Source: Desulforamulus putei DSM 12395
GTDB lineage: Bacteria > Bacillota > Desulfotomaculia > Desulfotomaculales > Desulfotomaculaceae
Reading direction: 5' to 3'
Length of the DNA stretch: 33,366 nt
NCBI RefSeq assembly: GCF_900129195.1
Contig: NZ_FQUY01000026.1
Coordinates: 1-33,366 of the forward strand
The notes under the pieces are model-generated. The model made no database searches. It was not told the DNA's origin and was given only the letters and a program-made list of their open reading frames with translations. The position numbers and the translations under genes were made by a program. Positions 2,140 to 32,808 of the stretch are shown piece by piece. Position 1 is the first letter of the stretch. The number at the start of each line of letters is the position of its first letter.

Positions 2140-3747
2140 TTGTTTAACCAAGCCGACCAACAAAAAGTAATAGTTGCTATCTACGTCCGGGTCTCCACCG
2201 AGGAACAAGCCGATAACTTCAGTATTCCCGCCCAGTTGGAGTTGCTCCGAAGTTACTGCCGGGCTATGAGTTATGAAATTTATGATGAGTACGTGGATGC
2301 CGGTTTTTCCGGCACCACTTCGGATCGTCCTGCCCTGGGTAGATTAATTGATGACGCCAAGACTGGGAAATTTCAGGTTATTCTAGTCTACCGCATTGAC
2401 CGGTTCTTCCGAAGCGTTAAGGACCTTCTTTTTGTTGTGGACTACTTAGACAAACTGGGAGTCTCCTTTCGCTCTGTTACAGAACCTTTCGACACCACTA
2501 ACCCCATTGGAAAATTTATGCTATCCCTTTTAGGCAGCATTGCCCAGCTTGAACGCGATACTTTTATTGAGCGAAGCATGATGGGTAAAATACGTCGGGC
2601 CGAGGAAGGATATGTTGTTTTAAGCAGTCCGCCTTATGGTTATGACTACATTATGCCTTTCGAATCAGGTAGAAAAAGTAAGTCCGAAAAAGGATATCTT
2701 GTTGTCAATAATGATGAAGCTCAAGTAGTGAAGGAAATATTTCTGGAATACATAAAACCGGATCAAAGTACCATTACAGTTGCAAAATACTTAGCTCAAA
2801 AAGGATACAAAACAAAACGCGGCGGCCGTTGGGGTGGCGAACGAGTATATTCCATCCTTACAAATACAGCCTACATCGGCGAGTGGCGCTACAAAGATAT
2901 ATCGGTTTCTGTCCCACCTATAATAGATATAGATACCTTCGAAACGGCCCAGAAGCTGCTTAAAGAGCGTAAAAACATGATCCATAGGGTCACACCACGG
3001 GACTATCTTTTAAGGGGTCTCCTGCGTTGTAAGAAGTGCGGCAAATATATGGGCGGCACCACACAAATGCATAGGCATTATAAAAATGGAAAAAGGGTCG
3101 GAGATCCTTACAAGGAAACATACTATTACCGTTGTATCACAAGCAGTCTAGCCAGGCGGCGCGGCATGGATGAATCATGCCCGGCCAAGTGGGTTAAGGG
3201 TGAAAATATAGAAACAAAAGTCTTAAACTACCTTTCTGAAATACTCTCCAACCCCGCAAAGCTAAATGAGGCACTATCAGCACAGCAGGAGAATGTCCGT
3301 AACAAAAAGGCAGATACCGAGAAAAAACTAAAAGAATTAGATAAAACTATGTATAGGCTCGCTAATGAAAGAGAACGTATACTGGAGGCCTACCGCTCCG
3401 GTGTGATTGAATTATCTGACCTGCAAAAGTCAATAGAGGATATCAAGAGTCGGCAAAAGACTGTAGAACAGCAAATTAATGAAATCAAGCTGTCGCTCAT
3501 TATCGAGGAAGAAAAGTCAAAGAATGTCTTTGAAATCGTTGAGAAACACCGGAACAATTGGGAGGCGGTTCACAGCCTTAGCTTTGAAGAAAAAAGGGAA
3601 CTGCTCATAAAAACAGTTAAGTGCATCTGGGTAGAAACATCGCCAGATGGAAATGTAGTACTAGATATTGAGTGTTATCTGCCGGCAAGTGAGGAACAAA
3701 TTACTACTCCACCACTTGCGTCACATGAACCAGGCCGGTTTCGTTGA
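2140..3747 (+). CDS. Large serine recombinase / integrase of the element
   Basis: This enzyme cuts and rejoins attachment sites through a serine-DNA intermediate to integrate or excise a mobile element. The 535-residue protein has an N-terminal resolvase domain (about 10-160) with the YVRVST motif, nucleophile Ser19, and Arg85/88/91 in YRIDRFFRS. A recombinase domain follows (about 165-290), then a zinc ribbon with Cys297, Cys300, Cys332 and Cys347, and a charged coiled coil (about 375-465). This is the usual layout of phage-type large serine integrases. The start is taken as TTG at 2140, with GAGGTG six bases upstream. The promoter is overlapped by a LexA box, so DNA damage should induce it. 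Its 3' end overlaps the truncated end of comEC on the other strand, as expected for an integrase beside its own attachment site. A small separate directionality factor was not recognised in the window. Confidence 0.93.
   Translation: MFNQADQQKVIVAIYVRVSTEEQADNFSIPAQLELLRSYCRAMSYEIYDEYVDAGFSGTTSDRPALGRLIDDAKTGKFQVILVYRIDRFFRSVKDLLFVVDYLDKLGVSFRSVTEPFDTTNPIGKFMLSLLGSIAQLERDTFIERSMMGKIRRAEEGYVVLSSPPYGYDYIMPFESGRKSKSEKGYLVVNNDEAQVVKEIFLEYIKPDQSTITVAKYLAQKGYKTKRGGRWGGERVYSILTNTAYIGEWRYKDISVSVPPIIDIDTFETAQKLLKERKNMIHRVTPRDYLLRGLLRCKKCGKYMGGTTQMHRHYKNGKRVGDPYKETYYYRCITSSLARRRGMDESCPAKWVKGENIETKVLNYLSEILSNPAKLNEALSAQQENVRNKKADTEKKLKELDKTMYRLANERERILEAYRSGVIELSDLQKSIEDIKSRQKTVEQQINEIKLSLIIEEEKSKNVFEIVEKHRNNWEAVHSLSFEEKRELLIKTVKCIWVETSPDGNVVLDIECYLPASEEQITTPPLASHEPGRFR
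3704..3727. other. Inferred element/chromosome junction (att site) inside comEC
   Basis: The comEC reading frame follows the family up to GLVHV (codons about 3713-3727), where ComEC proteins normally continue with a conserved (A/S)xSGxH segment. Here it changes to TQVVE and a stop that lies inside the recombinase gene. The crossover should therefore be at or just left of the HV codons. The other half-site should be beyond the left window edge. Confidence 0.6.
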
Positions 3748-4450
3748 AGGCTAGCTGTACCTCCCGGGGGATCTCCCCACGGGTGCCGAACAGAATACCC
3801 TTTAATATAGACGCGTTGGTCTTGCTCATGGTTTGATCAAAGATTTTTTCCAGGGCATCCCGTATCCCATAGGCCATCCGCAGCAGCGGGTTTCCCCCTC
3901 TGTCCAGGAGCTTGATCTCCCCGGCGTCATGCACCGTAAGGATGGCGGCAATGCCCTGCCTGTTTAACCAGGCCCGGTAGTCAAAGGCGCCGGGGTTCCC
4001 CGGCGGTTCCGGGATGCTGATGAATCCCGCCAGTTCCAATCGGTCGCCGTATTGAAAAACCTTCTCCTGACCCCTTACCTTTACCCGGAGGACTCCCTTA
4101 ACAGGACCGGCCTGATCATTACTTACTGCCAGTTTATAAAAAACTGCCTCCGGGCGGACATCCGGCCGGTCGATGACTTGGCCTGTCACCCGCACGCTCT
4201 TACCCTGCCAGGTAACCGGCAGTGATGCCACCGCAGCCATTTTGATAGAGGTTAAGACCATTCCCAGGGTGAAGCAAAGACAAAAAAGGACCCAGGCATT
4301 CATACGCCAGGCCCTGATGAACCCTATACCTGCTATGATAAGGGTAAAAACCGCTGCCGTCATGGCAGCGGCAACATCTATTTTGCTGAAAGTTGCCCCG
4401 ACAATCCCCAAAATCAGGGCCAATACCAGAAAAACCAGCGGTCGCTGCAT
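3704..4450 (-). pseudogene. comEC: comEC 5' fragment, interrupted by the recombinase-bearing element
   Basis: ComEC forms the inner-membrane channel for single-stranded DNA in natural transformation. This fragment of about 248 residues has the N-terminal membrane helices (PLVFLVLALILGIVGATF, then a second pair), the OB-like DUF4131 region (VRVTGQVIDRPDVRPE... YGDRLELAGFISIPEPPGNPGAFDYRAWLNRQGI), and the beginning of the Competence domain. It stops after LAFNETGLVHVTQVVE, just where the conserved membrane channel domain should begin; full proteins are usually 700-800 residues. I chose ATG 4450 because AGGTGG lies five bases before it; an in-frame ATG at 4465 has no such site. It begins directly after the transglycosylase stop, so the com genes are one operon. 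The missing part probably lies left of the element, and excision could restore the gene. Confidence 0.88.
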
Positions 4451-4451
4451 A

Positions 4452-5099
4452 TTATCCACCTGCATAATGACGCCAGAAGCCGGTCACCCTTTCAATATAT
4501 TGAAGGGTTTCCCCATAGGGCGGCACGCCCTGGTGGCGGTCCACCGACCCGGGTCCTGCATTATAAGCGGCCAGGGCCAGTTTTACATCTCCGTTGTATT
4601 TATCCAGCATCGACTTCAAGTAGCGCACCCCCGCGTCGGCGTTTTGCTCCGGGTCGTAGGGGTTTTCTACCCCCAGGCTCCTGGCGGTGCCCGGCATTAA
4701 CTGCATCAAACCCATGGCGCCGGCCTTGGAAGTGGCGCCGGGGTTAAAACCGGACTCCACCCTGGCCACCGCTTTACAGAGGGCAGGGTCCACCCCGTGA
4801 CGCAGGGCGGCCCTTTCTACCATGGCTTCATATTCTTTGGACCCCCGGGCAGCCAAAAAAGACGCCGCTGCTGCCCGGGCTGAGGCCTGGGTCTGCCTTT
4901 TAGGCAGGAAAGGGACCTCTGCCAAACAAACGGCGGGTTTAAGGTTTACATCTGTATTGACAGAACCTGCTTCGGCGGCCATCAATCTGGCCAGCAACAG
5001 GGAAAACTCCGGGGAGTTCCCCCTGTTCTCTTGAAAACTGTTCAGGCCGGTTTCCATCGTCTGCAGAAGGATTAACCGGGCCAGCATACTTGCTTCCAC
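4452..5099 (-). CDS. SLT-type lytic transglycosylase in the com operon
   Basis: It cleaves peptidoglycan glycan strands to give 1,6-anhydro ends. The 215-residue protein has a variable N-terminal region (1-88) and a C-terminal SLT domain (about 89-212). The catalytic Glu is residue 115 in ARVESGFNP, followed by GAMGLMQLMP, the RYLKSMLDKYNGDVKLALAAYNAGPG block, and YIERVTGFW. No clear signal peptide is visible, so export is unexplained or occurs through another route. It lies between comEA and comEC, 32 bp after comEA and touching comEC, which suggests a job in opening the wall for DNA uptake. That role is inference; general wall turnover is the alternative. Confidence 0.9.
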   Translation of the reverse strand: MEASMLARLILLQTMETGLNSFQENRGNSPEFSLLLARLMAAEAGSVNTDVNLKPAVCLAEVPFLPKRQTQASARAAAASFLAARGSKEYEAMVERAALRHGVDPALCKAVARVESGFNPGATSKAGAMGLMQLMPGTARSLGVENPYDPEQNADAGVRYLKSMLDKYNGDVKLALAAYNAGPGSVDRHQGVPPYGETLQYIERVTGFWRHYAGG

Positions 5100-9348: not shown

Positions 9349-11013
9349 CTAAGCTGTTTCGATTTTCGTCAGACTTTCCAACCCCAGGGTGGCAATGGCC
9401 TGTTCTCTGAGTTTATACTTTTGAACCTTACCACTGGCGGTGGTAGGATAGCTGTCAACAAACAGCACATAAGAAGGAATTTTATATTTGGCAATTTTAT
9501 CTTTACAGTAGGCCTGCACTTCTTCCTTCGTTAAACTGGCGCCTTCCCTCAGTTGGATGTAGGCCAGGACCTCCTCGCCATACTTGAGGCTGGGCACGCC
9601 AATTACCTGTACATCTTTGATGGCGGGGTGGGTGTAAAGGAACTCTTCAATTTCTCGCGGGTAAATATTTTCCCCGCCACGGATAATCATATCCTTCAAA
9701 CGGCCGGTAATTTTAAAATAGCCCTTTTCGTCCATGACGCCCAAATCCCCGGTGTGCAGCCAGCCCTCTTTGTCGATGGCCTGGGCAGTTGCTTCCGGCA
9801 TCTTATAGTATCCTTTCATGACGTTATAGCCTCTGGCCACAATCTCTCCCTGCACACCCGGCGGGCAATCTTCACCGGTCTCCGGATCCACAATTTTAGC
9901 TTCCACATTGGGAATCACCCGTCCCACAGTGGTTACCCGCAGTTCAATGGGATCCTCGGTTCTGGTCATGGTGATGGCTGGGGATGCTTCGGTCTGGCCG
10001 TAGGTGATGGTGATTTCTTTTGCTCCCATCCGGTTCACAACCGATTTCATGACTTCTATGGGGCAGGGGGAACCGGCCATAATACCGGTACGCAGGCTGC
10101 TGGTATCATAATTTCTTTTATTCATTTCTTCCAGCTCCATGATGAACATGGTGGGAACACCGTGTACCGCCGTGCAACGCTCCTTCTCAATGGTTTCCAG
10201 CACCTTCACCGGATGGAAAACTTCCAACGGCACCATGGTAGCCCCGGAAACCACGCAGGTCATGGTACCCAACACACAGCCAAAACAGTGGAAAAAGGGC
10301 ACCGGGATGCAGAGACGGTCCCTGTGGGTGAAGGCCATGCAATTTGCGATGCTGTGGGCGTTGTTAATGATGTTAAAGTGCGTTAACATAACGCCCTTGG
10401 GAAAGCCGGTGGTACCGGAAGTATATTGCATGTTGATGACATCATCCGGGTCCAGGCTCGCCTGGCGGGCAGCCAGTTCTTCGTCAGTTACCTGGTCAGC
10501 CAGTGCAAGAAGATCGGTCCAGTTTAACATGCCGGGCGGGGTTTCTGGTCCGATAAAAATCACATTTTTCATCAACGGCAGTCTTGCGGACTGCAACTGC
10601 CCGGGTTGGCATTCATTAAGTTCGGGACATAACTCGTTCACCATTTTGATATAGTTTGAGGTTTTTGTACCGCCAATCATCACCAGCGTGGTGGTGTCGG
10701 ACTGCTTCAGCAGGTATTCCACCTCAAAGGTTTTATAGTTGGTATTGACGGTCACCAGTACAGCCCCCATCTTTCCGGTGGCAAATTGCAGGGTCACCCA
10801 TTCCGGCACGTTGGTGGCCCAGATGGCGATATGTTCGCCCTTTTGAATACCAAGGGCCATCAACCCTTTGGCAACTTTCCGGCAAAGCTCGTTAAACTCC
10901 CGGTAACTGTAACGAAGATCCCTGTCGGTATACACCAGCGCTTCATGATCCGGGTGTTCCGCCGCTACGCGATCCAACAGTGCTCCCACCGTTATTCTGT
11001 CCAATTCTTGCAT
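9349..11013 (-). CDS. AMP-dependent acyl-CoA synthetase (fatty-acid or related acid ligase)
   Basis: It activates a carboxylic acid with ATP to an acyl-AMP, then transfers it to CoA. The 554-residue protein has the AMP-binding loop YTSGTTGFPKG at 197-207, the TYGQTEASP adenylate motif, LHTGDLGVMDEKGYFKITGRLKDMI with GGENIYPREIEE, and the C-terminal lysine segment TASGKVQKYKLRE. Overall similarity is to the medium/long-chain acyl-CoA synthetase group (FadD/AcsM-like); the acid cannot be fixed from sequence. The start is ATG 11013. It is the first gene after the T-box leader, an unusual position because T-box control normally serves aminoacyl-tRNA synthetase or amino-acid genes, and leuS follows directly. 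Confidence 0.92.
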   Translation of the reverse strand: MQELDRITVGALLDRVAAEHPDHEALVYTDRDLRYSYREFNELCRKVAKGLMALGIQKGEHIAIWATNVPEWVTLQFATGKMGAVLVTVNTNYKTFEVEYLLKQSDTTTLVMIGGTKTSNYIKMVNELCPELNECQPGQLQSARLPLMKNVIFIGPETPPGMLNWTDLLALADQVTDEELAARQASLDPDDVINMQYTSGTTGFPKGVMLTHFNIINNAHSIANCMAFTHRDRLCIPVPFFHCFGCVLGTMTCVVSGATMVPLEVFHPVKVLETIEKERCTAVHGVPTMFIMELEEMNKRNYDTSSLRTGIMAGSPCPIEVMKSVVNRMGAKEITITYGQTEASPAITMTRTEDPIELRVTTVGRVIPNVEAKIVDPETGEDCPPGVQGEIVARGYNVMKGYYKMPEATAQAIDKEGWLHTGDLGVMDEKGYFKITGRLKDMIIRGGENIYPREIEEFLYTHPAIKDVQVIGVPSLKYGEEVLAYIQLREGASLTKEEVQAYCKDKIAKYKIPSYVLFVDSYPTTASGKVQKYKLREQAIATLGLESLTKIETA

Positions 11014-12495: not shown

Positions 12496-12750
12496 TTAAG
12501 CCCTCGGCTCGCGGGCTTTTGCTTCGTTTACCGTGATGATCCTGCCACCGAGTTCGGTACCGTTCAGCGCTGCCACCATTTTCTCAACATCAGCGTCATT
12601 TACTTCAACGAAACCAAAGCCACGGGAACGACCGGTCTCACGGTCAGTAATCACCCGGCTGCTAAACACTTCACCATATTGGGAAAAAGCTTCCTGCAAA
12701 TCCTCCGCCTTGGTAGCCCAGGGTAGGTTACCTACATATAAAGTTGCCAC
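12496..12750 (-). CDS. RRM-family RNA-binding protein
   Basis: A short 84-residue protein made of one RNA recognition motif. RNP2 is TLYVGNLPW near residue 3 and RNP1 is RGFGFVEV near residue 42, with DLQEAFSQYGEV between them. Bacterial single-RRM proteins of this size bind RNA, and some are cold-inducible; the targets here are unknown. I chose GTG 12750 because AGAGGTG lies six bases before it. An in-frame TTG at 12771 would add seven residues but has no ribosome binding site. It has its own terminator and so is probably transcribed alone between nadD and yqeK. Confidence 0.9.
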   Translation of the reverse strand: MATLYVGNLPWATKAEDLQEAFSQYGEVFSSRVITDRETGRSRGFGFVEVNDADVEKMVAALNGTELGGRIITVNEAKAREPRA

Positions 12751-21823: not shown

Positions 21824-22492
21824 TTAAAGCCCCTTACGAGTTTGGCTTACAATTTGTACAAATTGGCTGGCTCTTTCAGTTAGTGCTTCATAACGTTCTT
21901 GTTTAATTGCTTCCTTATCTAATAAGGCTCCGCCAACCCCCAAGGCCACACAGCCGGCTTTGATAAATTCGGCGGCATTTTCCAGGGTTACCCCGCCGGA
22001 AGGCATAAGAGGTACATGCTTGAAGGGTCCTCTTACTTCTCTAAAATATCTGGGTCCTAAAACTCCGGCCGGGAACACTTTCAGCAGGTCTGCCCCCATC
22101 TCGTAGGCATTAATGATTTCCGTTGGAGTCATGACCCCCGGAATTACCACCTTACCGTAGCGTTTAGCGGTACGAATAACATCCTCATGAAGGCTGGGGC
22201 AAAAGATAAACTCAGCTCCTGCCAGAATAGCTGCCCGAGCGGTTTCCGCATCCAAAACGGTACCTGCACCAACTACAGCTTGGTGACCGATTTCTGACAC
22301 GACTTGCTTGATCATATCAATGGCCCCCGGGGTATCCATTGTTACCTCGATCGAGGTGACTCCACCTTTATGTAAGGCCCGGGCAATGTTTACTACTTTG
22401 GCAGCTTCAGCCCCCCGTACAACTGCTACAACACCACATTCCAGCAAGCTTTCTGCCAGCCTGGATTTAGGTAAAATTAAATCCTGCTTCAT
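21824..22492 (-). CDS. eda: KDPG/KHG aldolase
   Basis: It cleaves 2-keto-3-deoxy-6-phosphogluconate to pyruvate and glyceraldehyde 3-phosphate. The 222-residue protein has Arg26 (VVAVVRG), Glu49 (SIEVTMDTP), VGAGTVL, FCPS, and Schiff-base Lys138 in ADLLKVFPAG. This is a complete Eda active site and length. Its ATG overlaps the stop of kdgK (TAATG-type), so kinase and aldolase are coupled in translation, completing the phosphorylated branch of the Entner-Doudoroff route. Confidence 0.95.
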   Translation of the reverse strand: MKQDLILPKSRLAESLLECGVVAVVRGAEAAKVVNIARALHKGGVTSIEVTMDTPGAIDMIKQVVSEIGHQAVVGAGTVLDAETARAAILAGAEFIFCPSLHEDVIRTAKRYGKVVIPGVMTPTEIINAYEMGADLLKVFPAGVLGPRYFREVRGPFKHVPLMPSGGVTLENAAEFIKAGCVALGVGGALLDKEAIKQERYEALTERASQFVQIVSQTRKGL

Positions 22493-23442
22493 TACCTCTC
22501 AATCTCCCTCCTCTGTCCTAGGAATATTTCAACCTCTTCCATAGTGGGTAAACCTTCAACATCCCCAATAACCTGAGTGGCTCGAGCTCCTACGGCATTG
22601 GCTAGTTTCACAGCCTCAGTTACACTCCAACCTTTCAGCAACCCGCTGATAAAACCGGCTGCAAAACCATCCCCTGCCCCAATGGGGTCAACTACTCTGG
22701 CAACCGGATAACCGGGCACAAATTCTGCATAAGTCTCTGTGGCTAAATACGCCCCTTTGTCACCGCATTTAATCACTACGATTTTGGCCCCGGTTTTTAA
22801 CATCCTGGCAGCGATTTCCTCCGGTTCTTCCGCCCCTACCAGCAGCCGGCCCTCTTCCAATCCTGGCAGTACAATATCAGCCTGAGAAACAAGTCCCATA
22901 ATCACTTCCTTAGCCCTTTCCGCGGACCAAAGTTTAAGGCGAATGTTGGGGTCTAAACTGATTGTTACGCCTCGGGACTTCGCTAAACGGATGGCTTCTA
23001 AAATCGTCTCATAACAAGACTCGCTCAGGGCCGGCGTGATTCCGGTTATATGCAAAAATTTAGCACCGGCAATATAGTCCGGGTTCAAATCCGCAGGCAC
23101 CATGCGGCTGGCTGCAGAACCCTTCCGGTAATAGTAGACTTTACTTTCCCCTCCCTCCTGCCGCTCCTTAAAAAACACACCGGTAGGAGCATCGGAATCT
23201 TCCTTAACCTGGCTGGTGTCTACACCTTCACCCCGAATAAAGGAGATAATATATTTACCAAACTCATCCTTCCCCACTCGGCTAATCCAGCCTACGGAAT
23301 GGCCCAGCCTGCTTACGCCAATGGCGAAGTTGGATTCGGCTCCCCCAATTTGTCGAACAAAATGAGTTACATATTTTAGGGGCCCGGTGTTGAGGGCATT
23401 TAATAAAACCATAGTCTCGCCGAGGGTAACTACTTCCGGCAT
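22492..23442 (-). CDS. kdgK: 2-keto-3-deoxygluconate kinase (PfkB family)
   Basis: It phosphorylates KDG to KDPG. From ATG 23442 the product is 316 residues with PfkB features: VVTLGETMVLLNA at the N-terminus, GGAESNFAIGVSRLG near 33-47, ISLDPNIRLKLW, and the C-terminal ATP/anion-hole signature DPIGAGDGFAAGFISGL. YYYRKGSAAS is the substrate-binding segment typical of KDG kinases. An upstream in-frame extension to 23487 crosses the presumed regulatory site and is not used; AAAGGA lies ten bases before ATG 23442. An operator-like site (23469-23493) lies just upstream, so kdgK probably starts its own transcript. Confidence 0.93.
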   Translation of the reverse strand: MPEVVTLGETMVLLNALNTGPLKYVTHFVRQIGGAESNFAIGVSRLGHSVGWISRVGKDEFGKYIISFIRGEGVDTSQVKEDSDAPTGVFFKERQEGGESKVYYYRKGSAASRMVPADLNPDYIAGAKFLHITGITPALSESCYETILEAIRLAKSRGVTISLDPNIRLKLWSAERAKEVIMGLVSQADIVLPGLEEGRLLVGAEEPEEIAARMLKTGAKIVVIKCGDKGAYLATETYAEFVPGYPVARVVDPIGAGDGFAAGFISGLLKGWSVTEAVKLANAVGARATQVIGDVEGLPTMEEVEIFLGQRREIER

Positions 23443-23468: not shown

Positions 23469-23493
23469 GTTTCGAATTGCAAAACACCGTTTT
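23469..23493. promoter_or_regulatory. IclR/KdgR-type operator upstream of kdgK
   Basis: GTTTC (23469-23473), N7, AAAAC (23481-23485), N3, GTTTT (23489-23493). It has exactly the layout and orientation of three sites upstream of the SDR gene. It is 27 bp before the kdgK start. Confidence 0.65.
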
Positions 23494-23536: not shown

Positions 23537-24823
23537 CTACTTCATCATGTTTATCAGACCCATAGATATTTCAGGTATATACGTTATAAGCATAAGGGCC
23601 AATACCAGCACTGCAAAGAAAGGCATAATCGCCCGGGACAACTTCTCTAACGATACCCCAGAAATCCCATTAGCCACAAACAGGTTCACACCAAGGGGCG
23701 GTGTAATAAACCCAATGGCCAGGTTCACCACCATAATGGCACCGAAATGAATGGGATCCACGCCGAACTTTAGGGCAACTGGCAGCAAAATGGGAGCTAA
23801 AATGATGATCGCCGCTAGGGTATCCATAAAGGTTCCTACAATAAGTAAAAGCAAGTTAATCAACAGCAAAACAATAATGGGGTTCTGCGAGAAGTTTGTA
23901 ATAGCATTAGCCAGCATAGTAGGAATTTGCTCCAGAGCAAGTAACCGGCCAAAAGTGGTTGCTGTCCCTACAATGATTAAGACGGTGGCTGTTGTTAGTG
24001 CAGAAGATGCCACTAAAGAGGGAACTTCGGTTATTTTTAACTCACGGTAGATAAAGACCCCGGCAATGAAGCCGTAAACCACTGCGATAACGGCTGCTTC
24101 CGTAGGTGTAAATACACCACCGTAAATTCCACCTAGAATAATAACTGGAACCAGCAATGCCCACTTGGCATCGTTACATGCTCTTAATAGTCGAGATAAG
24201 GTAAACCCCTGCTCTGATCCTTTTAACCCAGTCTTTTTAGCGTAAATATAACACCATGCCATTAAAAACAAACCTACCAGGATGCCAGGTAAAATACCGG
24301 AAATAAACAGGTCCCCGATGGATGCATTGGTGGATACGCCGTAAATAACCATGGGAATGCTAGGCGGGATCATAACACCGATGGTACCGGATGCAGCCAC
24401 TACTGCAGCAGCAAACTTCTTATCATAACCTGCCTTAACCATTTCCGGAATAATCATCATGCCAATGGCCGCCACGGTAGCCGGACCAGATCCAGAAATA
24501 GCACCAAAGAACATACAAGTGGCCACTGTCACCATTGCTAAACCGCCGGGAAACCGTCCCACCAGCACATCCGCAACCGCCAGCAAGCGCTTTGATATGC
24601 CACCTTTTCCCATTAGGTCCCCAGCTAAAATAAAGAACGGCACTGCCATTAATGGGAAAGAATCAACTGAAGTGATCATCCCTTGGGCTAACATGGTCAG
24701 AGGAGCGCCTGAGACTAAAAACGCCAGGATACATGCCAGGCCCAGGGCAATCCCGATAGGAACATTGAAAACCAGAAAGGCGGCAAAACTTCCAAATAAC
24801 ACCTGGGCTACCAATTTAATCAA
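23537..24823 (-). CDS. dctM: TRAP transporter large permease subunit
   Basis: DctM is the membrane subunit that carries the sugar acid or dicarboxylate with Na+. The 428-residue protein has about twelve hydrophobic helices. Characteristic segments include FPLMAVPFFILAGDLMGKGGISKRLL, ISGSGPATVAAIGMMIIPEMVKAGYDKKFAAAVVAASGTIGVMIPPSIPMVIYG and IGFITPPLGVNLFVANGI. Length is as usual. It follows dctQ and dctP, and precedes the kdgK group. Without a working dctP the transporter should not function. Start is ATG 24823. Confidence 0.94.
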   Translation of the reverse strand: MIKLVAQVLFGSFAAFLVFNVPIGIALGLACILAFLVSGAPLTMLAQGMITSVDSFPLMAVPFFILAGDLMGKGGISKRLLAVADVLVGRFPGGLAMVTVATCMFFGAISGSGPATVAAIGMMIIPEMVKAGYDKKFAAAVVAASGTIGVMIPPSIPMVIYGVSTNASIGDLFISGILPGILVGLFLMAWCYIYAKKTGLKGSEQGFTLSRLLRACNDAKWALLVPVIILGGIYGGVFTPTEAAVIAVVYGFIAGVFIYRELKITEVPSLVASSALTTATVLIIVGTATTFGRLLALEQIPTMLANAITNFSQNPIIVLLLINLLLLIVGTFMDTLAAIIILAPILLPVALKFGVDPIHFGAIMVVNLAIGFITPPLGVNLFVANGISGVSLEKLSRAIMPFFAVLVLALMLITYIPEISMGLINMMK

Positions 24824-24853
24824 CCCTTCCTAAATTCTATTCTTTGACTAGAA

Positions 24854-25384
24854 TTAACGGGAATCAGAAGTTCTAATTGTTGATCCCACTATGTTGTTCT
24901 CCTGATTTAGCCCCTTCAATTCACTAACGATTACTACAATATTTTGTACCAACCGGATAATAGCAAGAGAAAACCCAATAGGAGAAGCCATGTAAATATA
25001 GCCCATCGGAATCGACAAGGCAGGTGACGTTTGACCAAAACTAAGAAGGTTCATAGCTACAGCGGTACCCTGTTGAATAATGAACACACAGAAAACAATA
25101 AACAATATATTAGAAAAAATGAGAAGATATTTTTGGGCTTTAAACGGGAGAATTAACATTATTGCATCCACTTTAATATGGCGCTGCATTTTTACCCCGT
25201 AACTAATTCCGATATAGACCATCCAGATAAAAAGATAGCGGGCCAACTCCTCCGTCCACGAAGGGGAGGCATGCATTACATAACGCATAAAAACCTGTAC
25301 GGCAATCAAGATAACGGTGGTGGACAATAGAAAACTTAACAGGTACTCCTCCAAGTGTTTATCGATCTTTCGTAACAGGCCCAT
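24854..25384 (-). CDS. dctQ: TRAP transporter small permease subunit
   Basis: The 176-residue protein has four membrane helices, starting with LLSFLLSTTVILIAVQVFMRYV. It has the family signature WTEELARYLFIWMVYIGISYGVKMQRHIKVD (about 40-72) and MGYIYMASPIGFSLAIIRLVQNI near the C-terminus. DctQ pairs with DctM in the membrane. Start is ATG 25384. It lies between dctP and dctM, 30 bp from dctM. Confidence 0.93.
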   Translation of the reverse strand: MGLLRKIDKHLEEYLLSFLLSTTVILIAVQVFMRYVMHASPSWTEELARYLFIWMVYIGISYGVKMQRHIKVDAIMLILPFKAQKYLLIFSNILFIVFCVFIIQQGTAVAMNLLSFGQTSPALSIPMGYIYMASPIGFSLAIIRLVQNIVVIVSELKGLNQENNIVGSTIRTSDSR

Positions 25385-25408
25385 ACTCTCACCCCTTACT
25401 TTTTAATG

Positions 25409-25435
25409 ACTGCACGGGGGACACCCCCGTGCAGT
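25409..25435. other. Strong hairpin between dctP and dctQ
   Basis: Perfect 12-bp stem ACTGCACGGGGG / CCCCCGTGCAGT with a 3-nt loop, in the 60-bp gap between dctP and dctQ. No T-run follows on the minus strand, so it is more likely an mRNA-stabilising or partial-termination hairpin. It would give more binding protein than permease. Confidence 0.7.
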
Positions 25436-25444
25436 ATGAGGATC

Positions 25445-25994
25445 TTACTTCTTAACTTTCTCAACTTCTGCCATTAATTCATCTATTAACTGACGGCCAC
25501 CCATCATTTCAGCGCCTTTGTCATAAACGGGTTTGAGAGCCTCAACCATTTTGGCTTTTTCTTCGGCAGGCAGTTCATTCACTACACAGCCAGCATCTTT
25601 GATAACCTTTAGGCTCTTTTCTTCCTGTTGTTTCATCAGGTCACGTTGGTACTGGCCGGCTTCTTTAACTGCATCTAAAACAACTTTTTGCAGATCCTGA
25701 GGCAATTCATCAAAAAACTTCTTGTTCATCATGATTACAAAGGGAGTATAGATATGACCGGACAGGGTTAGATACTTGTTAGCTTCATAAAACTTGTTGG
25801 AGTCAATCAGTGCCAGCGGGTTTTCCTGACCGTCTACAGTACCCTGCTGTAAAGCGGTAAATACTTCACCAAAGGCCATCGGAGTGGGGTTAGCACCCAA
25901 CTGTTTCCAGGCAGCCATGTGCAGCTGGTTTTCCATTGTTCTTAATTTGAGGCCTTTAATATCTTCCAGTTTGTTAATGGATCTCTTACTATTG
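25445..25994 (-). pseudogene. dctP: dctP 3' fragment (TRAP substrate-binding protein)
   Basis: This is the C-terminal half of the TRAP periplasmic-type binding protein: SKRSINKLEDIKGLKLRTMEN, GEVFTALQQGTVDGQENPLALI and NKKFFDELPQDLQKVVLDAVKEAG. The arginine of LKLRTMEN is the usual carboxylate-binding residue region. The open frame appears to begin at 26026 but the first 32 bp are insertion-sequence DNA. It is separated from its N-terminal half by an IS1380-family element. Deleting the element and one copy of the 5-bp duplication restores RHITNSKRS in frame, so this was one gene. Confidence 0.93.
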
Positions 25995-27696
25995 CCTGAA
26001 TCCGCAAAATAAACTTTCTGTATCACCCTATAATTTGTAGGTAGACGAAGAAATATGTAGAAATATACATCTAATCCATATTTCTAATCTTCACCTCAGG
26101 GGTGCTACATGAAAAACAAGAAAAACAAAGCCCAAATTAAGAATGACGATAAACTTACCATTTTTGAAATTGAACAAGGTAACGAAGATTTAACCACTCA
26201 TTCTGGGCTGGCTCTTATAGGGGCACTACTTTCGAACACCAAAATAAAAACACGGCTGAATAAAACAATGGCAACTGAGCAAAAGAAACCCCATATCTCT
26301 AATGGAAGTGTTGGTATTGCCTACATTGGGTTGTTGTGCCAGGGTAAGAGTGATTTTGACCACATTGAACCCTTCCGGGAAGATAACTTTTTCTCCATCG
26401 CACTAAACATAAAAGAGACCCCTTCCAGTCCTACCCTCCGTCAGCGATTGGATATGATGGCTAAGGATGGACAATGGAATAATATCTTGCTGGAAGAATC
26501 TGCAGAATTACTCAAGAAAACCAATGCCCCGCTAACACCGGTGTACCTTGGCCAGAAAGAAAGGCCATATCTTCCGCTGGATATTGATGTGTCCCCCTTT
26601 GATAACTCGAATACCAAAAAGGAAGGGGTCTCCCGAACCTACAAAGGTACTGATGGTTATGCTCCCATCTTTGCATATTTAGCAAAGGAAGGTTACTGTG
26701 TAAATACCGAACTGCGCCAGGGTAGTGAACACTGCCAAAAGGGAACCTCGGAATTTATTACTAAAAGCATTCAATATGCTCGAAAAATCACCCAAATGCC
26801 TTTGCTTTTAAGGATGGATTCAGGTAATGACAGTGCAGATAATATCCAGATTTGCTTAAATGAAAATACCCGGGCAGATTTCATAATCAAGAGGAACCTT
26901 CGTAAAGAAACCCCCGAAGGGTGGCTGCTCTTGGCAAAAAACAATACAAAAAACAATAAAGATATATACTGTCAGGAAAGAGAAGGCAAAAAAGTCTACT
27001 ACGGTTCCATGATGAAATACAAAAAAGAACTCAACAGGGAAATCAGAGTAGTTTACAAAATTACGGAAAGAACCTCTGGCAAAGATGGTCAGATCTTTCT
27101 TATCCCTCAAGTGGAAGCCGAAACATATTGGACATCACTGCCTGATTTACCCCATATAATCGAAAGACTGTACCATGAACATGGCACTAGCGAGCAGTTT
27201 CATAGTGAACTCAAGACAGATCTGGATTTAGAAAGACTGCCCTCTGGCAAATTTGACACCAACAACCTAGTGCTACATTTTGGGGTAATGGCCTATAACC
27301 TATTAAGGATCATTGGTCAATCAACAACCCAGATGAAGCATGTGCCTTTACGTAAGCAGGCAGAGCGCCGCAGGATAAGGACAGTAATACAGAACCTAAT
27401 TACATTGGCATCCCGGTTAATATCGCACGCTAGGAAGAAGAAACTACAGTTTGGCAGGCATAGTCCTTGGTTTGAAACATTTAAGCAAGCCTATTCTGTG
27501 TGTTTAGCAAGATAAAGTTATCCACAAAAAAAAATATAAAACCAAAGCACAAAACGTGTGCTTAGATTGCTGTTGTCAATTTTAGGGTACTCCTGTAGAG
27601 GATTAGCAGATTATTGTAAATAGCATCGGCAAAATACAAATTTTATCACTAACATCAATCCGAGGGACTGCCTGCTGGGTAAATCACGGATTCAGG
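25995..27696 (+). mobile_element. IS1380-family insertion sequence in dctP
   Basis: The element is 1702 bp. Its ends carry the perfect inverted repeat CCTGAATCCG (25995-26004 and 27687-27696). The target TATTG is duplicated on both sides (25990-25994 and 27697-27701). One transposase gene occupies most of it. The intact ends, direct repeats and exactly repairable target gene point to a recent insertion. Confidence 0.93.
26109..27515 (+). CDS. IS1380-family transposase
   Basis: A full-length 468-residue DDE transposase. The acidic residues lie in LDIDVSPFDNSNTKKEGVSRTYKG (first Asp), LLLRMDSGNDS (second Asp) and YHEHGTSEQFHSELKTDLDLERLPSG (Glu), the pattern of the IS1380 group. Start is ATG 26109, with AGGGGTG about six bases upstream. 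The frame is uninterrupted, so the enzyme may be active. It reads opposite to dctP. The nearby stretch 27516-27696 is element tail without a gene. Confidence 0.94.
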   Translation: MKNKKNKAQIKNDDKLTIFEIEQGNEDLTTHSGLALIGALLSNTKIKTRLNKTMATEQKKPHISNGSVGIAYIGLLCQGKSDFDHIEPFREDNFFSIALNIKETPSSPTLRQRLDMMAKDGQWNNILLEESAELLKKTNAPLTPVYLGQKERPYLPLDIDVSPFDNSNTKKEGVSRTYKGTDGYAPIFAYLAKEGYCVNTELRQGSEHCQKGTSEFITKSIQYARKITQMPLLLRMDSGNDSADNIQICLNENTRADFIIKRNLRKETPEGWLLLAKNNTKNNKDIYCQEREGKKVYYGSMMKYKKELNREIRVVYKITERTSGKDGQIFLIPQVEAETYWTSLPDLPHIIERLYHEHGTSEQFHSELKTDLDLERLPSGKFDTNNLVLHFGVMAYNLLRIIGQSTTQMKHVPLRKQAERRRIRTVIQNLITLASRLISHARKKKLQFGRHSPWFETFKQAYSVCLAR

Positions 27697-28189
27697 TATT
27701 GGTAATATGACGGAATCCGTTTTCCCAGTAACCCAAACCCTTGATCCCTTGGCTTGCCAGGTTATCAAGAAGTTTTTGGCCAATAGGACCATCCAGAACT
27801 TTATAAGCAGTTTCCCGATCCGGGAACAAGAAGGGTAGGTCAAACAGGTAGAAGGACTTCTCGAAGTTTGCTACCGGAGAGGTGGAAGAAAGGGTCATGG
27901 TTACAGTACCCATTTGCACTGCTTCGGTTAATTCACGGTCGCCACCTAAAACGCCATTAGCATGAAGTTCAGCCTTAATTTTGCCGTTACTATTCTTTTC
28001 AACCAGTTCGATAAACTTAAGAAATCCATTGTGGGCCGGGTGAGTTTCTACAACAGGAGAACCAATTTTGATGGTATAAGCACCGTCACCGCCGGCGGAT
28101 TTTTTCTCTTCCCCACCACTACCGCCGCATCCGGCCAGTAGGAAACTCATCAGCATTACCAAAACGATGGTCACTAATTTCTTAAACAT
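27697..28189 (-). pseudogene. dctP: dctP 5' fragment (TRAP substrate-binding protein)
   Basis: The N-terminal half begins with a lipoprotein signal, MFKKLVTIVLVMLMSFLLAGC with lipidation Cys21, as Gram-positive TRAP binding proteins have. It continues with IKIGSPVVETHPAHNGFLKFIELVEKNSNGKIKAELHANGVLGGDRELTEAVQMGTVTM, the DctP family N-terminal domain. The frame ends at 27692 just inside the IS1380-family element, after GFRHITNT. The product would lack half of the ligand-binding cleft, so sugar-acid uptake by this TRAP system should be lost. Start is ATG 28189; the gene follows the alcohol dehydrogenase by 23 bp. Confidence 0.93.
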
Positions 28190-28212: not shown

Positions 28213-28949
28213 TTAGGGTTGTAACAGGATTTTCATAGAATGGCCGGTCCCCCGCATAAGTTCAATTCCTTCCTGTGCCTGTTCCAGGGGTAGTTTATGT
28301 GAAATAACACGGCCAATTTCTTGATTTTTTATTAACATGTCAATTGCAACTTCATAATCCCGGGGAGTATACACCCTCACACCGATGAGTGAAAGTTCCC
28401 TGAAATTAACGGCCTGCAAATCAACCTTGGCAGGTTCTTTAAAGACTCCCACAATTACAATCTGTCCCGTAATTTTAACCAGCCGTGTAGCAAGGGTCGC
28501 AGTAGCAGGAACACCGGCGGCTTCATAAACCACATCTGCACCATTACCTCTGGTAAGGCTCAAGATTTCCGCTTCGGGATCTTGACTAGCGTCGATTACA
28601 GTAAAACCAAGGCTTCGGGCGAGGTCACGGCGGCTTTCGCTTACTTCTGTAACGAAAACCCGAGATGCACCTGCGTACCGGGCTGTAATGGCGGTAAGTA
28701 AACCAATGGGCCCGCCTCCCAGGACTGCAACAGTATCTCCTGCTTTTAGAATCGATTTCCTTACCGCATGAACACAAACTGCCAGTGGTTCCACCAAACA
28801 AGCTACATCCAAAGGCAAATCCTGTGGAAGTTTGAGCACTTTAGCTGCATCTACCTTCACATACTCAGCGAAACCCCCGTCAATATCAATCCCTATTAAG
28901 CCAAGCTTTTTGCAAACATGAGCGTTACCGGTCTGACAAGGTTGACAGT
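28213..28949 (-). pseudogene. Zinc alcohol dehydrogenase, 3' fragment
   Basis: This is the C-terminal part of a medium-chain dehydrogenase: CQPCQTGNAHVCKKLGLIGIDIDGGFAEYV (structural zinc cysteines and the start of the core), then VAVLGGGPIGLLTAITARYAGA with the NAD-binding GGGPIG, and GNGADVVYEAAG. Reading begins at the IS3-family junction (28949). An internal GTG at 28860 is the first start-like codon but the protein would lack the catalytic domain. It joins the N-terminal fragment at 30471-30756 exactly if the element and one 3-bp copy are removed. Sorbitol, L-idonate, L-threonine or similar polyol/hydroxy-acid dehydrogenases are the closest type. Confidence 0.92.
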
Positions 28950-29015
28950 TGACCTTACCGCGATTTTATGGACACATAGAACGTGTGATACAATAAAATA
29001 ACGGAGGTGTCCTAA

Positions 29016-29300
29016 ATGAGAACATTTGATAAAGAATACAAAATTATGGCAGTCAATCGTGTGAAGGCGGGGGAAAAGTCTGCCGCTGAGGTAGCCAGGG
29101 AACTAGATTTAAGTCCCACCACGCTATATGGGTGGATAAGGAAGTTCGGTAAACACGGCGAAAATGCCTTTCCCGGAAGCGGTCACCTGCACAAGGCTGA
29201 CGATGAGTTGCGTAGGCTTCGTAAAGAAATTATGGATCTGAAAGAGGAAAACGCCATCTTAAAAAAGGCGGCAGCCTACTTCGCCAAAAACCAGAAATAG
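29016..29300 (+). CDS. IS3-family transposase OrfA (helix-turn-helix subunit)
   Basis: The 94-residue protein begins TFDKEYKIMAVNRVKAGEKSAAEVARELDLSPTTLYGWIRKFGKHG, a helix-turn-helix that binds the element ends. A leucine-rich coiled coil follows (DELRRLRKEIMDLKEENAILKKAAAYFAK). Start is ATG 29016 with GGAGGTG seven bases upstream. The frame ends with a stop about 15 bp before the OrfB start. Confidence 0.95.
   Translation: MRTFDKEYKIMAVNRVKAGEKSAAEVARELDLSPTTLYGWIRKFGKHGENAFPGSGHLHKADDELRRLRKEIMDLKEENAILKKAAAYFAKNQK
29261..29267 (+). other. Programmed -1 frameshift heptamer A AAA AAG
   Basis: The slippery heptamer lies in the OrfA frame as TTA AAA AAG. A shift of -1 there gives KKGGSLLRQKPEIERFRF, which runs without a stop into OrfB. 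This is the usual way IS3 elements make the fused OrfAB transposase. Confidence 0.75.
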
Positions 29301-29314
29301 AACGCTTTCGTTTC

Positions 29315-30151
29315 ATGGAGACACACCGCTCCGAATTTCGGGTTGCGAAGATGGCTGAGGTGCTCCAGGTATCAAGGAGCGGTTTTTACGCATATTTAAG
29401 GCGACCCAAAAGCAATCGAGAAATAGAAAATGAGTTGCTGCTCGAAAAGATAAAGGCTATCTACAAGAAGAACCACGCTATATACGGATATCCTCGCATA
29501 ACCAACGAACTAAAGAACGACGGCGCACCTAGCAAAAATCGTGTATACAGGCTGATGAGAAAAAACGGCATCAAATCAAAGACCGTAAAAAAATATAAGG
29601 CAACGACTAACTCAAATCATAACCTCCAGGTTGCTGAAAATCTGCTTAACCGCGAATTTACAGCAAATAAGCCAAATCAAAAGTGGGTAAGTGATATCAC
29701 CTATGTTGCAACCGATGAAGGGTGGCTGTACCTCGCCGGTGTTATGGATTTGTGCGGCAGGCCAATCGTTGGCTTTGCCATGGCCGAGCACATGAGAAAG
29801 TCACTTGTCATAGAAGCCCTAAACCAGGCCATAGGCAGAACTGGTGCGAAAGAAGGGCTATTGGTACATTCCGATCGCGGTGTCCAATATGCCAGCAGAG
29901 AATATCAGGCCATACTAAATGAAAATAAATTTATATGTAGCATGAGCCGCAAAGGGAACTGCTATGACAACGCTCCTATGGAATCATTCTGGGGCAAGCT
30001 CAAACAAGAGTGGTTGTACGGTAAGCGGTTTAAGACGCGGGCCGAAGCCAAGGCAGCCATATTTGAATATATCGAAGTCTTTTACAACCGACGGCGCATA
30101 CATTCTAGCAACTGTTACAAAACACCGATGGAAGTTATAAAGGCAGCGTGA
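29315..30151 (+). CDS. IS3-family transposase OrfB (DDE catalytic subunit)
   Basis: The 278-residue protein has the retroviral-integrase-type DDE domain. The acidic residues are in WVSDITYVATDEGWLYLAGVMD, LLVHSDRGVQYAS and NCYDNAPMESFWGKLKQEW. The N-terminal HTH_21 region is YRLMRKNGIKSKTVKKYKATTNS. The frame is open upstream to the frameshift site. It looks intact, so the element may be mobile, making either OrfB alone or the OrfAB fusion. Confidence 0.95.
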   Translation: METHRSEFRVAKMAEVLQVSRSGFYAYLRRPKSNREIENELLLEKIKAIYKKNHAIYGYPRITNELKNDGAPSKNRVYRLMRKNGIKSKTVKKYKATTNSNHNLQVAENLLNREFTANKPNQKWVSDITYVATDEGWLYLAGVMDLCGRPIVGFAMAEHMRKSLVIEALNQAIGRTGAKEGLLVHSDRGVQYASREYQAILNENKFICSMSRKGNCYDNAPMESFWGKLKQEWLYGKRFKTRAEAKAAIFEYIEVFYNRRRIHSSNCYKTPMEVIKAA

Positions 30152-30188
30152 TCGCTAAATGTTGGTGCATAAAACTAACCCTTGGTCG

Positions 30189-30297
30189 CCCTTGACATGG
30201 AGCCTCGCACCCGTGTTTCCAAGGGCCAAGGGCAACCCAGCTTCGCTTAGTGCCCCTTGCCATGAAAGGCTAACACGGGCATTCTCCATGTCAAGGG
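30189..30297. repeat. 109-bp nested palindrome in the IS3 tail
   Basis: Outer arms CCCTTGACATGGAG (30189-30202) and CTCCATGTCAAGGG (30284-30297) are perfect over 14 bp. Inner arms CCCGTGTT (30210-30217) and AACACGGG (30272-30279) are perfect over 8 bp, with GC-rich sequence inside. It lies between orfB and the element right end. The structure is unlike an IS3 end and may be a nested repeat or a folded RNA. Confidence 0.75.
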
Positions 30298-30470
30298 TCT
30301 CCGCTATCGCTCCGATAAACGACCATGATCATATATCAAGGTGGTACTCCGGCGAATTAAAAAGCCACCTTCACCTTAACATAACATACTAAATATTATA
30401 TAATTAAGCAATTTTGTGAGACAGTTAGATATTGTGCGTTTTTAGTGTCTATTGATTCGGGGTAGGTTCA

Positions 30471-30787: not shown

Positions 30788-31558
30788 TTAAATGGCTAAT
30801 GAAAGGAAACCACCATCAACAGCTATGGTACTGCCGGTTACGAAATTGGAGGCGTCAGAGCAAAGAAAGATAGTTGCTCCAACTAAATCCTCAGGTAACC
30901 CCAGTCGCTGCATCGGTGTCCGATTTACAATTTTATCGTAGGTCTCTTTCACAGAAAGCATTTTTTCTGTTAACGGGGTCTTAAAATATCCCGGAGAAAT
31001 ACAGTTCACATTAATACCGTAAGGAGCCCACTCTGCTGCTAATACCTTGGTTAGTTGAAGTACAGCCCCTTTGCTGGCACAGTAAGCTGCGGAGCGGGTG
31101 ATGCCCAGGTGAGAGCCAAGTGAGGCAATATTTATAATTTTGCCACTCTTCTGAGCAATCATTTTCTCTCCCACCGCTTTACAGGCTAGGAATGTACCCT
31201 TAAGGTTGACAGCCAATACGTCGTCCCATTCCTCCCCTGTCAACTCCAATGCTGGTTTTTTATAGTTTTTACCGGCTGCGTTGATTAGGATGTCGATGTG
31301 ACCAAATTTCGCCATAACCTCATCCACAAGGCGTTTTACATCTTGTTCATCAGTAACATCTACAGAGGTTAACAGGGATTTGCGTCCTAATGCAACGATT
31401 TCCTCAACGACTTCTCTATTGCGCTCTTTATTTCGGCTCACAGGGATAACATTGGCCCCGGCTCTCGCTAAACCTAAACTAATCGTTCTGCCAAGACCAC
31501 CGCCGCCACCCACAAAAATGGCAACCTTACCGTTTAAATCAAAAAGTTGTGTACTCAT
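30788..31558 (-). CDS. Short-chain dehydrogenase/reductase
   Basis: The 256-residue SDR has the nucleotide-binding GGGGGLG (17-23), NAAG, and the catalytic Ser146, Tyr159 (YCASK) and Lys163. The C-terminal ISPGYFKTPLTEK and VDGG motifs are normal. The form is like gluconate 5-dehydrogenase or 2-deoxy-D-gluconate/KduD-type enzymes, fitting sugar-acid interconversion; the substrate is not fixed. It is the first gene of the IclR-controlled transcript, with three operator-like sites 49-168 bp upstream of its ATG 31558. TATAAT at 31617-31612 (minus strand) lies inside the nearest of these. Confidence 0.92.
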   Translation of the reverse strand: MSTQLFDLNGKVAIFVGGGGGLGRTISLGLARAGANVIPVSRNKERNREVVEEIVALGRKSLLTSVDVTDEQDVKRLVDEVMAKFGHIDILINAAGKNYKKPALELTGEEWDDVLAVNLKGTFLACKAVGEKMIAQKSGKIINIASLGSHLGITRSAAYCASKGAVLQLTKVLAAEWAPYGINVNCISPGYFKTPLTEKMLSVKETYDKIVNRTPMQRLGLPEDLVGATIFLCSDASNFVTGSTIAVDGGFLSLAI

Positions 31559-31606: not shown

Positions 31607-31631
31607 GTTTCATTATACAAAACAACGTTTC
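31607..31631. promoter_or_regulatory. IclR/KdgR-type operator 1 upstream of the SDR gene
   Basis: GTTTC (31607-31611), N7, AAAAC (31619-31623), N3, GTTTC (31627-31631). The N7 segment contains the reverse complement of a TATAAT -10 element for the SDR transcript, so binding here should repress. Confidence 0.7.
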
Positions 31632-31653
31632 TATTTGTAGCTATTATTAAAAT

Positions 31654-31678
31654 GTTTCATATAACGAAACCCTGTTTC
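31654..31678. promoter_or_regulatory. IclR/KdgR-type operator 2 upstream of the SDR gene
   Basis: GTTTC (31654-31658), N7, GAAAC (31666-31670), N3, GTTTC (31674-31678). Both palindromes in it are perfect. It is offset 47 bp from operator 1. Confidence 0.7.
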
Positions 31679-31701
31679 TTTTGTGCAGGAAAAATAAAAT
31701 A

Positions 31702-31726
31702 GTTTTGCAATATGAAACACTGTTTT
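31702..31726. promoter_or_regulatory. IclR/KdgR-type operator 3 upstream of the SDR gene
   Basis: GTTTT (31702-31706), N7, GAAAC (31714-31718), N3, GTTTT (31722-31726). Same layout and orientation as the others, offset 48 bp from operator 2. Confidence 0.7.
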
Positions 31727-31795: not shown

Positions 31796-32572
31796 TTATT
31801 GTCTGTAGCCCAGCTGCCTTGATATTTTATTGGCAGTTTCAATCAACATTGTAGCTAATTCTTTCTCAATTCGATCTTTAGTTACCCGTATAGTAGGACC
31901 AGCCACACTTATTGAAGCAATTACATTACCTTTGTAATCCCGAACAGGAGCGGCAACACACCGGAGTCCCGGGTCGTGTTCCTCATCGTCGATGGCATAC
32001 CCCTGCCTCCTTATTTCTTCAAAGTGCTTAAGCAGTTTATCCAGTTGGGTGATGGTTTTATCAGTCTTGTAAACCAAACCACTCTCTTTAATAATTTTTA
32101 TAACTTCTGCTTCAGGCTGAAATGCAGCAATCACTTTGCCAACACCTGTACAATGTATGGGTGCAACACGGCCTATACGAGAATACATGAGCACAGAGTT
32201 GCGGCTTTCAACCTTGTCAATATACACAACTTTTCCATTCTCCCACAGACACAAATGCACAGCTTCTTGTGTTTGCTCCATTAACTCCTGCAGAAATGGG
32301 CGGGCTTCGGACCGAATTTCCATACTATCAAGCCTTGCCTGACCCAGGCTGATAAGCTTTAAACCTAATCGATACTTTTCGGTATCGTTCTTTTTTTCTA
32401 CATAGCCTCGAAGCATTAAAGTATGAAGCAGACGGTGAACCGTACTTTTATGCAAGCCGACAATGGAGCCTATCTCGGTAACACCTAAGCCAGACTCATG
32501 TCTTGACAATTCTTCAAGAATATCTAAAGCCCTATCCAGAGATTGAACAACATTATCTCTTTCAGATTTCAT
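31796..32572 (-). CDS. IclR-family transcriptional regulator (KdgR-like)
   Basis: The 258-residue protein has a winged helix-turn-helix at the N-terminus (residues about 8-68: SLDRALDILEELSRHESGLGVTEIGSIVGLHKSTVHRLLHTLMLRGYVE). The IclR effector-binding domain follows (about 85-255), with HCTGVGKVIAAF, YAIDDEEHDPGLRCVAAPVRDYKGNVIASISVAGP. Such regulators respond to small organic acids; KdgR-type members respond to KDG. It is the first gene on this strand before the sugar-acid cluster and probably binds the four sites listed. Start is ATG 32572; the 237-bp gap upstream to 32808 holds no gene I recognise. Confidence 0.92.
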   Translation of the reverse strand: MKSERDNVVQSLDRALDILEELSRHESGLGVTEIGSIVGLHKSTVHRLLHTLMLRGYVEKKNDTEKYRLGLKLISLGQARLDSMEIRSEARPFLQELMEQTQEAVHLCLWENGKVVYIDKVESRNSVLMYSRIGRVAPIHCTGVGKVIAAFQPEAEVIKIIKESGLVYKTDKTITQLDKLLKHFEEIRRQGYAIDDEEHDPGLRCVAAPVRDYKGNVIASISVAGPTIRVTKDRIEKELATMLIETANKISRQLGYRQ

Positions 32573-32808
32573 TAAGCCTCATCTCCTGTTGCGTATTACG
32601 AAATCTATTTTTAATTTTGTATATTTATAATACTACGTCTTTTCACAATATTCCTGCCTATTGGGCAAATTTGTTTTAAATTTTCCGAACAAACTAAAAA
32701 ATTCTTGCTTGAGAAAAAGTTTTTAAATAAACGATAGTTTTGCCTTTCTTCCACAAATCATTTGACATCGGCCGTGATTGCTTTAGTAAGTGGTTCCCAA
32801 TAGGGACA

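Follow-up and report, generated by a model that had tools for sequence, protein, structure and literature searches.

The contig NZ_FQUY01000026.1 of Desulforamulus putei DSM 12395, analysed here as one stretch of 33,366 nucleotides ("the window"), carries a gene cluster for a dehydrogenase of the SDR family (sdr), a tripartite ATP-independent periplasmic (TRAP) transporter, a kinase resembling those for 2-keto-3-deoxygluconate (KDG) and an aldolase, next to a gene for an IclR-family regulator (iclR). Four copies of the 25-bp pattern GTTTY-N7-RAAAC-N3-GTTTY stand in this cluster, three before sdr and one between the genes dctM and kdgK. Judged by sequence comparison, they are very probably IclR operators on the cluster, and it is highly likely that they are three-box sites of the neighbouring IclR-family protein, which would act on them as a repressor and most likely as a tetramer. 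The set of sites is real and well conserved, and its architecture has already been described for the IclR family by Suvorova and Gelfand in 2021 (PMC8222616, drawn on here from its accessible parts).

An earlier note on this DNA had reported the four sites, and all of them are present and exact, lying on the + strand in one common orientation with the genes on the − strand (Table 1). As the note had also recognised, the middle half-site is common to two palindromes, both of which are intact in the exact sites. Its assignment to IclR can be kept in the form of a predicted three-half-site operator before sdr and before kdgK; the cooperative or looped binding that it added is not borne out (see the section on the array). 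A weaker fifth site directly before iclR had been overlooked, as had the fact that the array is partly conserved in a congener. Anatomy, exact spacing, the link to one IclR clade and gene set, conservation and polarity all appear from the comparison between loci.

Specificity of the Pattern

The exact three-box pattern, searched on both strands, has four matches in the 3.1-Mb genome, all within this cluster; no exact match indicates a regulon beyond it in this genome. It was absent from both strands of 2 Mb of genome-like Markov sequence and of 1 Mb of Markov sequence at 25% GC, compared with three occurrences in the 237 bp before sdr, a region that is itself 25% GC; in simulated AT-rich DNA, a score of 15 bits is reached at a rate of about 0.004 per 237 bp. 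The earlier note had asked whether the pattern might be equally common in AT-rich DNA and had proposed a search of the genome and its relatives: by the simulation and in the own genome it is not equally common, and the search returned the four exact matches in the own genome and, in relatives, clusters of sites beside iclR homologues in addition to isolated matches.

With relaxed patterns, the background becomes visible. At one mismatch, the whole genome holds 10 matches versus 6 for the reversed control, i.e., no signal beyond the cluster, and lone N7 palindromes, with up to one mismatch allowed, are present at four further positions, which is about the control level. Within the window, six matches at up to two mismatches compare with an average of 0.86 in shuffled sequence, and a single shuffle out of 100 reached six as well. 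An extended pattern of 28 positions, at up to three mismatches, gave eight matches in the own genome versus five in the control; seven lie in this cluster (two being opposite-strand shadows of sites) and one lies outside, on contig C12, and the degenerate site before iclR is among the eight.

Across 60 genomes, the own one included, the exact pattern has 43 matches in 27 genomes versus 14 in the control. Because of these 14 control matches, isolated exact matches elsewhere are often due to chance, and the signal is the clusters beside iclR homologues, not isolated matches. A stricter pattern gave 14 matches versus none in the control among 113 genomes of the order; three of the 14 (in G084, G006 and G001) lie outside the loci fetched for comparison, that of G084 resembling a genuine site and preceding an sdr and a Zn-dehydrogenase gene. 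The control matches in the 60 genomes and the low GC content before sdr are what could be brought forward for a chance pattern in AT-rich intergenic DNA. Such an origin is rejected on the confinement of the four exact matches to the cluster, the spacing grid described below and the Markov simulation, together with the conservation of the sites, and its probability is regarded as negligible.

Spacing and Sequence of the Conserved Unit

For comparison, the 60 genomes were searched with the IclR protein, and the seven best loci from other genomes as well as 13 further loci were fetched. Set A comprises the window and these seven best loci, chosen by protein score (IclR identity 68% in G011, 65% in G045, 65% in G007, 59% in G049, 57% in G004, 49% in G051 and 48% in G059). 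Set B comprises four of the 13 further loci (G013, G038, G046 and G028; IclR 40–41% identical) and is biased, two of the four having already been known to hold the pattern near iclR.

When exact boxes were counted over a grid of 144 spacing cells (first spacer 2–13, second spacer 0–11), 17 sites of set A fell on the (7,3) cell, and three of the 143 other cells held one each; set B gave three at (7,3) and none in other cells. Set A contains 21 exact GTTTY-N7-RAAAC pairs, of which 17 have an exact third box and two a third box with one mismatch, the remaining two falling inside kdgA or a kdgA-like gene. Likewise, the 21 exact RAAAC-N3-GTTTY pairs are accompanied by an exact outer box in 17 cases and by one with one (three cases) or two mismatches (one case). 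Since the two-box pairs almost never stand alone, the three-box site, and not either palindrome by itself, is the conserved unit.

This bears on the proposal of alternative dimerisation made for three-box sites by Suvorova and Gelfand (PMC8222616), according to which a single dimer would occupy one of the two palindromes, N7 or N3, the choice perhaps depending on the effector state, with no tetramer involved. All 17 exact sites retain both palindromes intact, as the proposal would have it; however, two-box sites should then be common near these genes, where almost none stands alone, and the constant polarity described below is not obviously required. We consider alternative dimerisation possible but rather unlikely for these sites.

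Conservation extends into the spacer and the flanks. Among the 20 exact sites of both sets, the N7 spacer reads roughly R-n-A-W-T-R-Y, some of its positions deviating from the published three-box consensus in single sites. The third box is followed by R in 18 of 20 and by W two positions on in all 20, and the first box likewise by R in 17 and by A or T in 17. Because its flank resembles that of the first box, the third box has the appearance of a complete half-site. None of the 17 exact triples in set A is accompanied by an exact fourth box, the nearest one having one mismatch.

Conservation in Related Loci

The gene order iclR, sdr, Zn-dehydrogenase, dctP, dctQ, dctM, kdgK, kdgA, 2-hydroxyacid dehydrogenase, dihydrodipicolinate synthase (DHDPS)-type aldolase is found in G011, G045 and G007, each of which has sites before both sdr and kdgK (the sdr site of G045 with one mismatch). 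In the footprint of the kdgK site across four genomes, 14 of 15 box columns are invariant, the corresponding values being 6/30 in the upstream flank, 6/26 in the downstream flank, 1/7 in the N7 spacer and 0/3 in the N3 spacer. The degenerate site before iclR has counterparts of 30.4 bits in G011, 21.0 bits in G007 and 15.2 bits in G045 and is probably autoregulatory. In these alignments, the three-box sites are conserved before orthologous, functionally linked genes. With up to one mismatch allowed, sites are present in 10 of the 20 fetched loci.

Several observations weigh against the interpretation as operators of this regulator. No convincing promoter was found, the result of the scan being at the level of shuffled sequence. 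The other 10 fetched loci, including that of the 59% homologue G049, are without a site at up to one mismatch (besides G049, contigs C50 and C27 of the own genome, two loci of G018 and one each of G043, G024, G034, G002 and G041). Among seven further contig loci, L028 has sites at this threshold and six (L029–L033 and L035) do not; L028 is apparently the same contig as G051:C5, with the same sites, and hence not independent of set A. The search of the order added two more 59% IclR homologues, G083 and G084, and in these two genomes as well as in G049 the place beside iclR is taken by a variant whose middle box is changed (18.6 bits in G049, two mismatches in G083 and G084). Furthermore, the strict matches in G006 and G001 lie inside the open reading frame (ORF) of another IclR-like gene. 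In the genus of G083, G084 and G049, the changed middle box perhaps reflects a shifted specificity.

The variant sites, at 2339–2363 of L158 (G083), 2336–2360 of L159 (G084) and 10010–10034 of L141 (G049), follow iclR and have the same polarity as the sites of the window.

Polarity of the Third Box

The third box is gene-distal in each of the 20 exact sites from sets A and B, and on the third-box side of none of the 20 does a called gene (ORFs of at least 100 codons) read away from the site. These sites are related by descent; by our estimate, the number of independent positions among them is eight or more. In 398 genomes of the phylum, a strict three-box pattern of the group 1 type gave eight matches, the window included, and none in the reversed control, and the other seven show the same polarity, with the caveats that an 85-codon ORF reads the opposite way at L182 and that L183, L184 and L185 come from one genus. 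At L183 and L185, the ORF caller picked antisense frames, and a translated search places iclR where the polarity rule expects it. The polarity of the G084 site agrees as well.

The layout reaches further into the family. In 80 more distant loci, counted outside called genes at up to one mismatch, GTTYC/GRAAC boxes fill the (7,3) cell nine times, the other 99 cells averaging 0.18, and GTTTY/RAAAC boxes 13 times versus an average of 0.53, with (8,3) second at eight. Nine sites at up to one mismatch were available from these loci for judging polarity: judged by the nearest gene, L029, L034 and L042 agree; L030 is ambiguous; the other five, L037 and four loci of Ruegeria, have four boxes or stand between divergent starts that are close together. 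In the Ruegeria loci (L094, L097, L099 and L105), almost complete four-box sites stand near 9870 beside iclR homologues, the divergent gene starts being close to each other.

In the accessible parts of PMC8222616, a constant side for the third box was not found stated; fixed polarity is, accordingly, a possible addition to the known three-box type. The same source describes tandem palindromes 18–22 nt apart. With boxes at 7-3-7 spacing, the centres of two group 1 palindromes fall 20 bp from each other, so that its tandem and three-box sites may share a single architecture. As a family-wide rule, we tentatively suggest, with the odds rather against it, that the three-box IclR operator is directional, with a tetramer bound asymmetrically on it and the second dimer pointing upstream, and that three-box and 18–22-nt tandem sites share this 7-3-7 architecture, the fourth, gene-distal box being missing in the former.

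The Triple Array Before sdr

The three sites before sdr follow each other at steps of 47 and 48 bp, from which the earlier note had derived cooperative or looped binding. A helically phased array of this kind could also draw on the homologous triple array of G007, which aligns with that of the window (two of its three sites having one mismatch), and on G084, where a second site with two mismatches lies 49 bp from the exact one before sdr. However, the steps vary from 44 to 49 bp among relatives (44 and 46 bp in G007), a range that covers about half a helical turn, and 47.5 bp corresponds to about 4.5 turns, placing neighbouring sites on opposite faces of the DNA; by comparison, the distances that PMC8222616 reports as over-represented are about two, three and four turns. 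Moreover, G011 has one strong and one weak site 133 bp apart before sdr and G045 a single one, so both do without the array. A phased arrangement is, on balance, improbable. The array may raise local occupancy.

Recent tandem duplication was considered as the origin of the array and rejected, the sites being 64–72% alike and their flanks mostly unlike (27–73% over the left 11 bp, 9–45% over the right 11 bp).

Proposed Mechanism and Comparison with Known Systems

The identity of the bound protein, the tetrameric mode, the sign of regulation and the effector are what we infer from the sites and their neighbours. In the mechanism favoured here, each operator has three equivalent GTTTY half-sites, the 17-bp group 1 palindrome GTTTY-N7-RAAAC being gene-proximal and the third box, 3 bp beyond on the gene-distal side, pairing with the shared middle box as a group 2 palindrome. 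One dimer would most likely occupy the 17-bp palindrome, and the second dimer of the same tetramer would contact the third box with one of its DNA-binding domains; this box and the like-oriented outer box are 20 bp apart, about two turns, and on the same face. Bound IclR would cover the promoter region and in this way repress sdr together with the genes that follow it, the internal site would allow separate repression of kdgK–kdgA, and IclR would weakly repress its own gene. Repression rather than activation is assumed by analogy with the IclR family, no convincing promoter having been found; TATAAT occurs on the gene strand within the N7 spacer of site C, with no convincing −35 element.

IclR might be released by a sugar acid from the pathway, either KDG or one of its precursors. 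These are reasonable effectors because genes for a KDG-kinase-like protein, a 2-keto-3-deoxy-6-phosphogluconate (KDPG) aldolase and a KduD/gluconate-dehydrogenase-like protein are present; no sugar-acid dehydratase was found among the genes scanned.

Like the three-box motif of PMC8222616, the sites have three boxes alternating in direction, with one pair in group 1 spacing (here mostly GTT-11-AAC) and the other in group 2 spacing. The N7 part is close to the group 1 subtype GTTYC-RY-W3-RY-GRAAC of that study, and the N3 pair resembles the shorter-spacer group 2. According to the parts of the study at hand, three-box sites are predicted for 199 regulators in 32 orthologous groups, and the GTT-11-AAC subtype is over-represented in Firmicutes, its regulons often comprising sugar or sugar-acid genes; neither a triple array nor a constant side of the third box was found described in them. 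Among the operators of PcaU, PobR and HmgR, which are cited there, that of PcaU likewise needs an extra repeat, its third box being required for binding and serving as the precedent, whereas the box sequence is different and the pathways are aromatic. With gamma-proteobacterial KdgR as treated there, the sites share a GAAAC/GTTTC pair with a short spacer, the IclR family and KDG-related genes; in contrast, KdgR is tabulated with a single palindrome, to which the N7 outer box is nearly always added here. The earlier suggestion that the sites extend the KdgR box holds for the resemblance of the N3 pair, and the site as a whole corresponds to the known three-box IclR type. Among the papers listed, the literature search yielded no closer account than PMC8222616 and none on IclR regulons of Desulfotomaculum.

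With three predicted operators in 237 bp, one internal operator, a weak, putatively autoregulatory one and orthologues in several genera, the locus offers a natural test set. It bears on the question of whether three-box sites in the IclR family are filled by a tetramer or used in two alternative dimer modes, to which the constant polarity suggests an answer.

The Gene Cluster and Its Probable Regulator

The features of the cluster are listed in Table 1. The start of kdgK was inferred from a four-genome alignment; its longest ORF begins at 23487 and would overlap the internal site.

Table 1. Predicted operator sites and genes of the cluster in the window.
Feature	Position	Strand	Remarks
Site C before sdr	31607..31631	+	GTTTC-N7-AAAAC-N3-GTTTC; centre of N7 palindrome 57 nt from sdr start
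Site B before sdr	31654..31678	+	Centre of N7 palindrome 104 nt from sdr start
Site A before sdr	31702..31726	+	Centre of N7 palindrome 152 nt from sdr start
Internal predicted operator between dctM and kdgK	23469..23493	+	Centre of N7 palindrome 35 nt before likely kdgK ATG at 23442
Fifth, degenerate site directly before iclR	32588..32612	+	16.7 bits; counterparts in G011, G007, G045
iclR, IclR-family regulator, presumed to bind the sites	31796..32572	−	HTH_IclR 63.9 bits, IclR_C 190.8 bits (cut-offs 22 and 24)
sdr, SDR dehydrogenase, KduD/gluconate 5-dehydrogenase-like	30788..31558	−	
kdgK, KDG-kinase-like	22492..23442	−	From likely ATG
kdgA, KDPG/2-keto-4-hydroxyglutarate (KHG) aldolase	21824..22492	−	
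dctP (split by insertion sequence), dctQ, dctM, TRAP transporter	23537..28189	−	

The IclR protein scores 226.4 bits against the KdgR equivalog PRK15090 (curated cut-off 275), 238 bits against BhcR NF045644 (cut-off 350) and 190.1 bits against the PcaR/PcaU/PobR subfamily TIGR02431 (cut-off 284.75); since it stays below the curated cut-offs for all three, it is not filed as KdgR. Another regulator, e.g., an IclR paralogue encoded elsewhere, might bind the sites instead, as the own genome encodes four more IclR homologues with E values of at most 1e-40, C50 carrying three of these. However, the sites track the clade of the regulator encoded here, and the paralogues differ in the recognition helix (STTFGLL, STVHGIL and STVHGLL versus STVHRLL) and have no nearby sites at up to one mismatch; binding by such a protein is very unlikely.

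The region 8936–12730 of L148, on C50, has the three paralogues in a row; they are 43–48% identical and lie near aldehyde ferredoxin oxidoreductase-like genes. The same region contains a variant three-box-like site, GTTCG...CAAAC...GTTTT, at 12706–12730.

The SDR/TRAP/KDG-kinase/aldolase cluster is interrupted by two insertion sequences. The first, at 25986–27705, has a transposase gene (DDE_Tnp_1_4) and imperfect 19-nt terminal inverted repeats, and it splits dctP, which is intact in G011 (L138); we take it to be of the IS1380 type. The second, an IS3-type element at 28861–30441 with transposase ORFs at 29016–29300 and 29315–30151, splits the Zn-dehydrogenase gene, which is likewise intact in G011. 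Together, both elements separate the sdr-side genes from kdgK, whose own predicted operator remains. Elsewhere in the window, at 2140–4465, a truncated ComEC-like (DUF4131) ORF shares its end with a large serine recombinase gene, an arrangement that looks like the insertion of an element, and recA, at 961–2010, adjoins this region.
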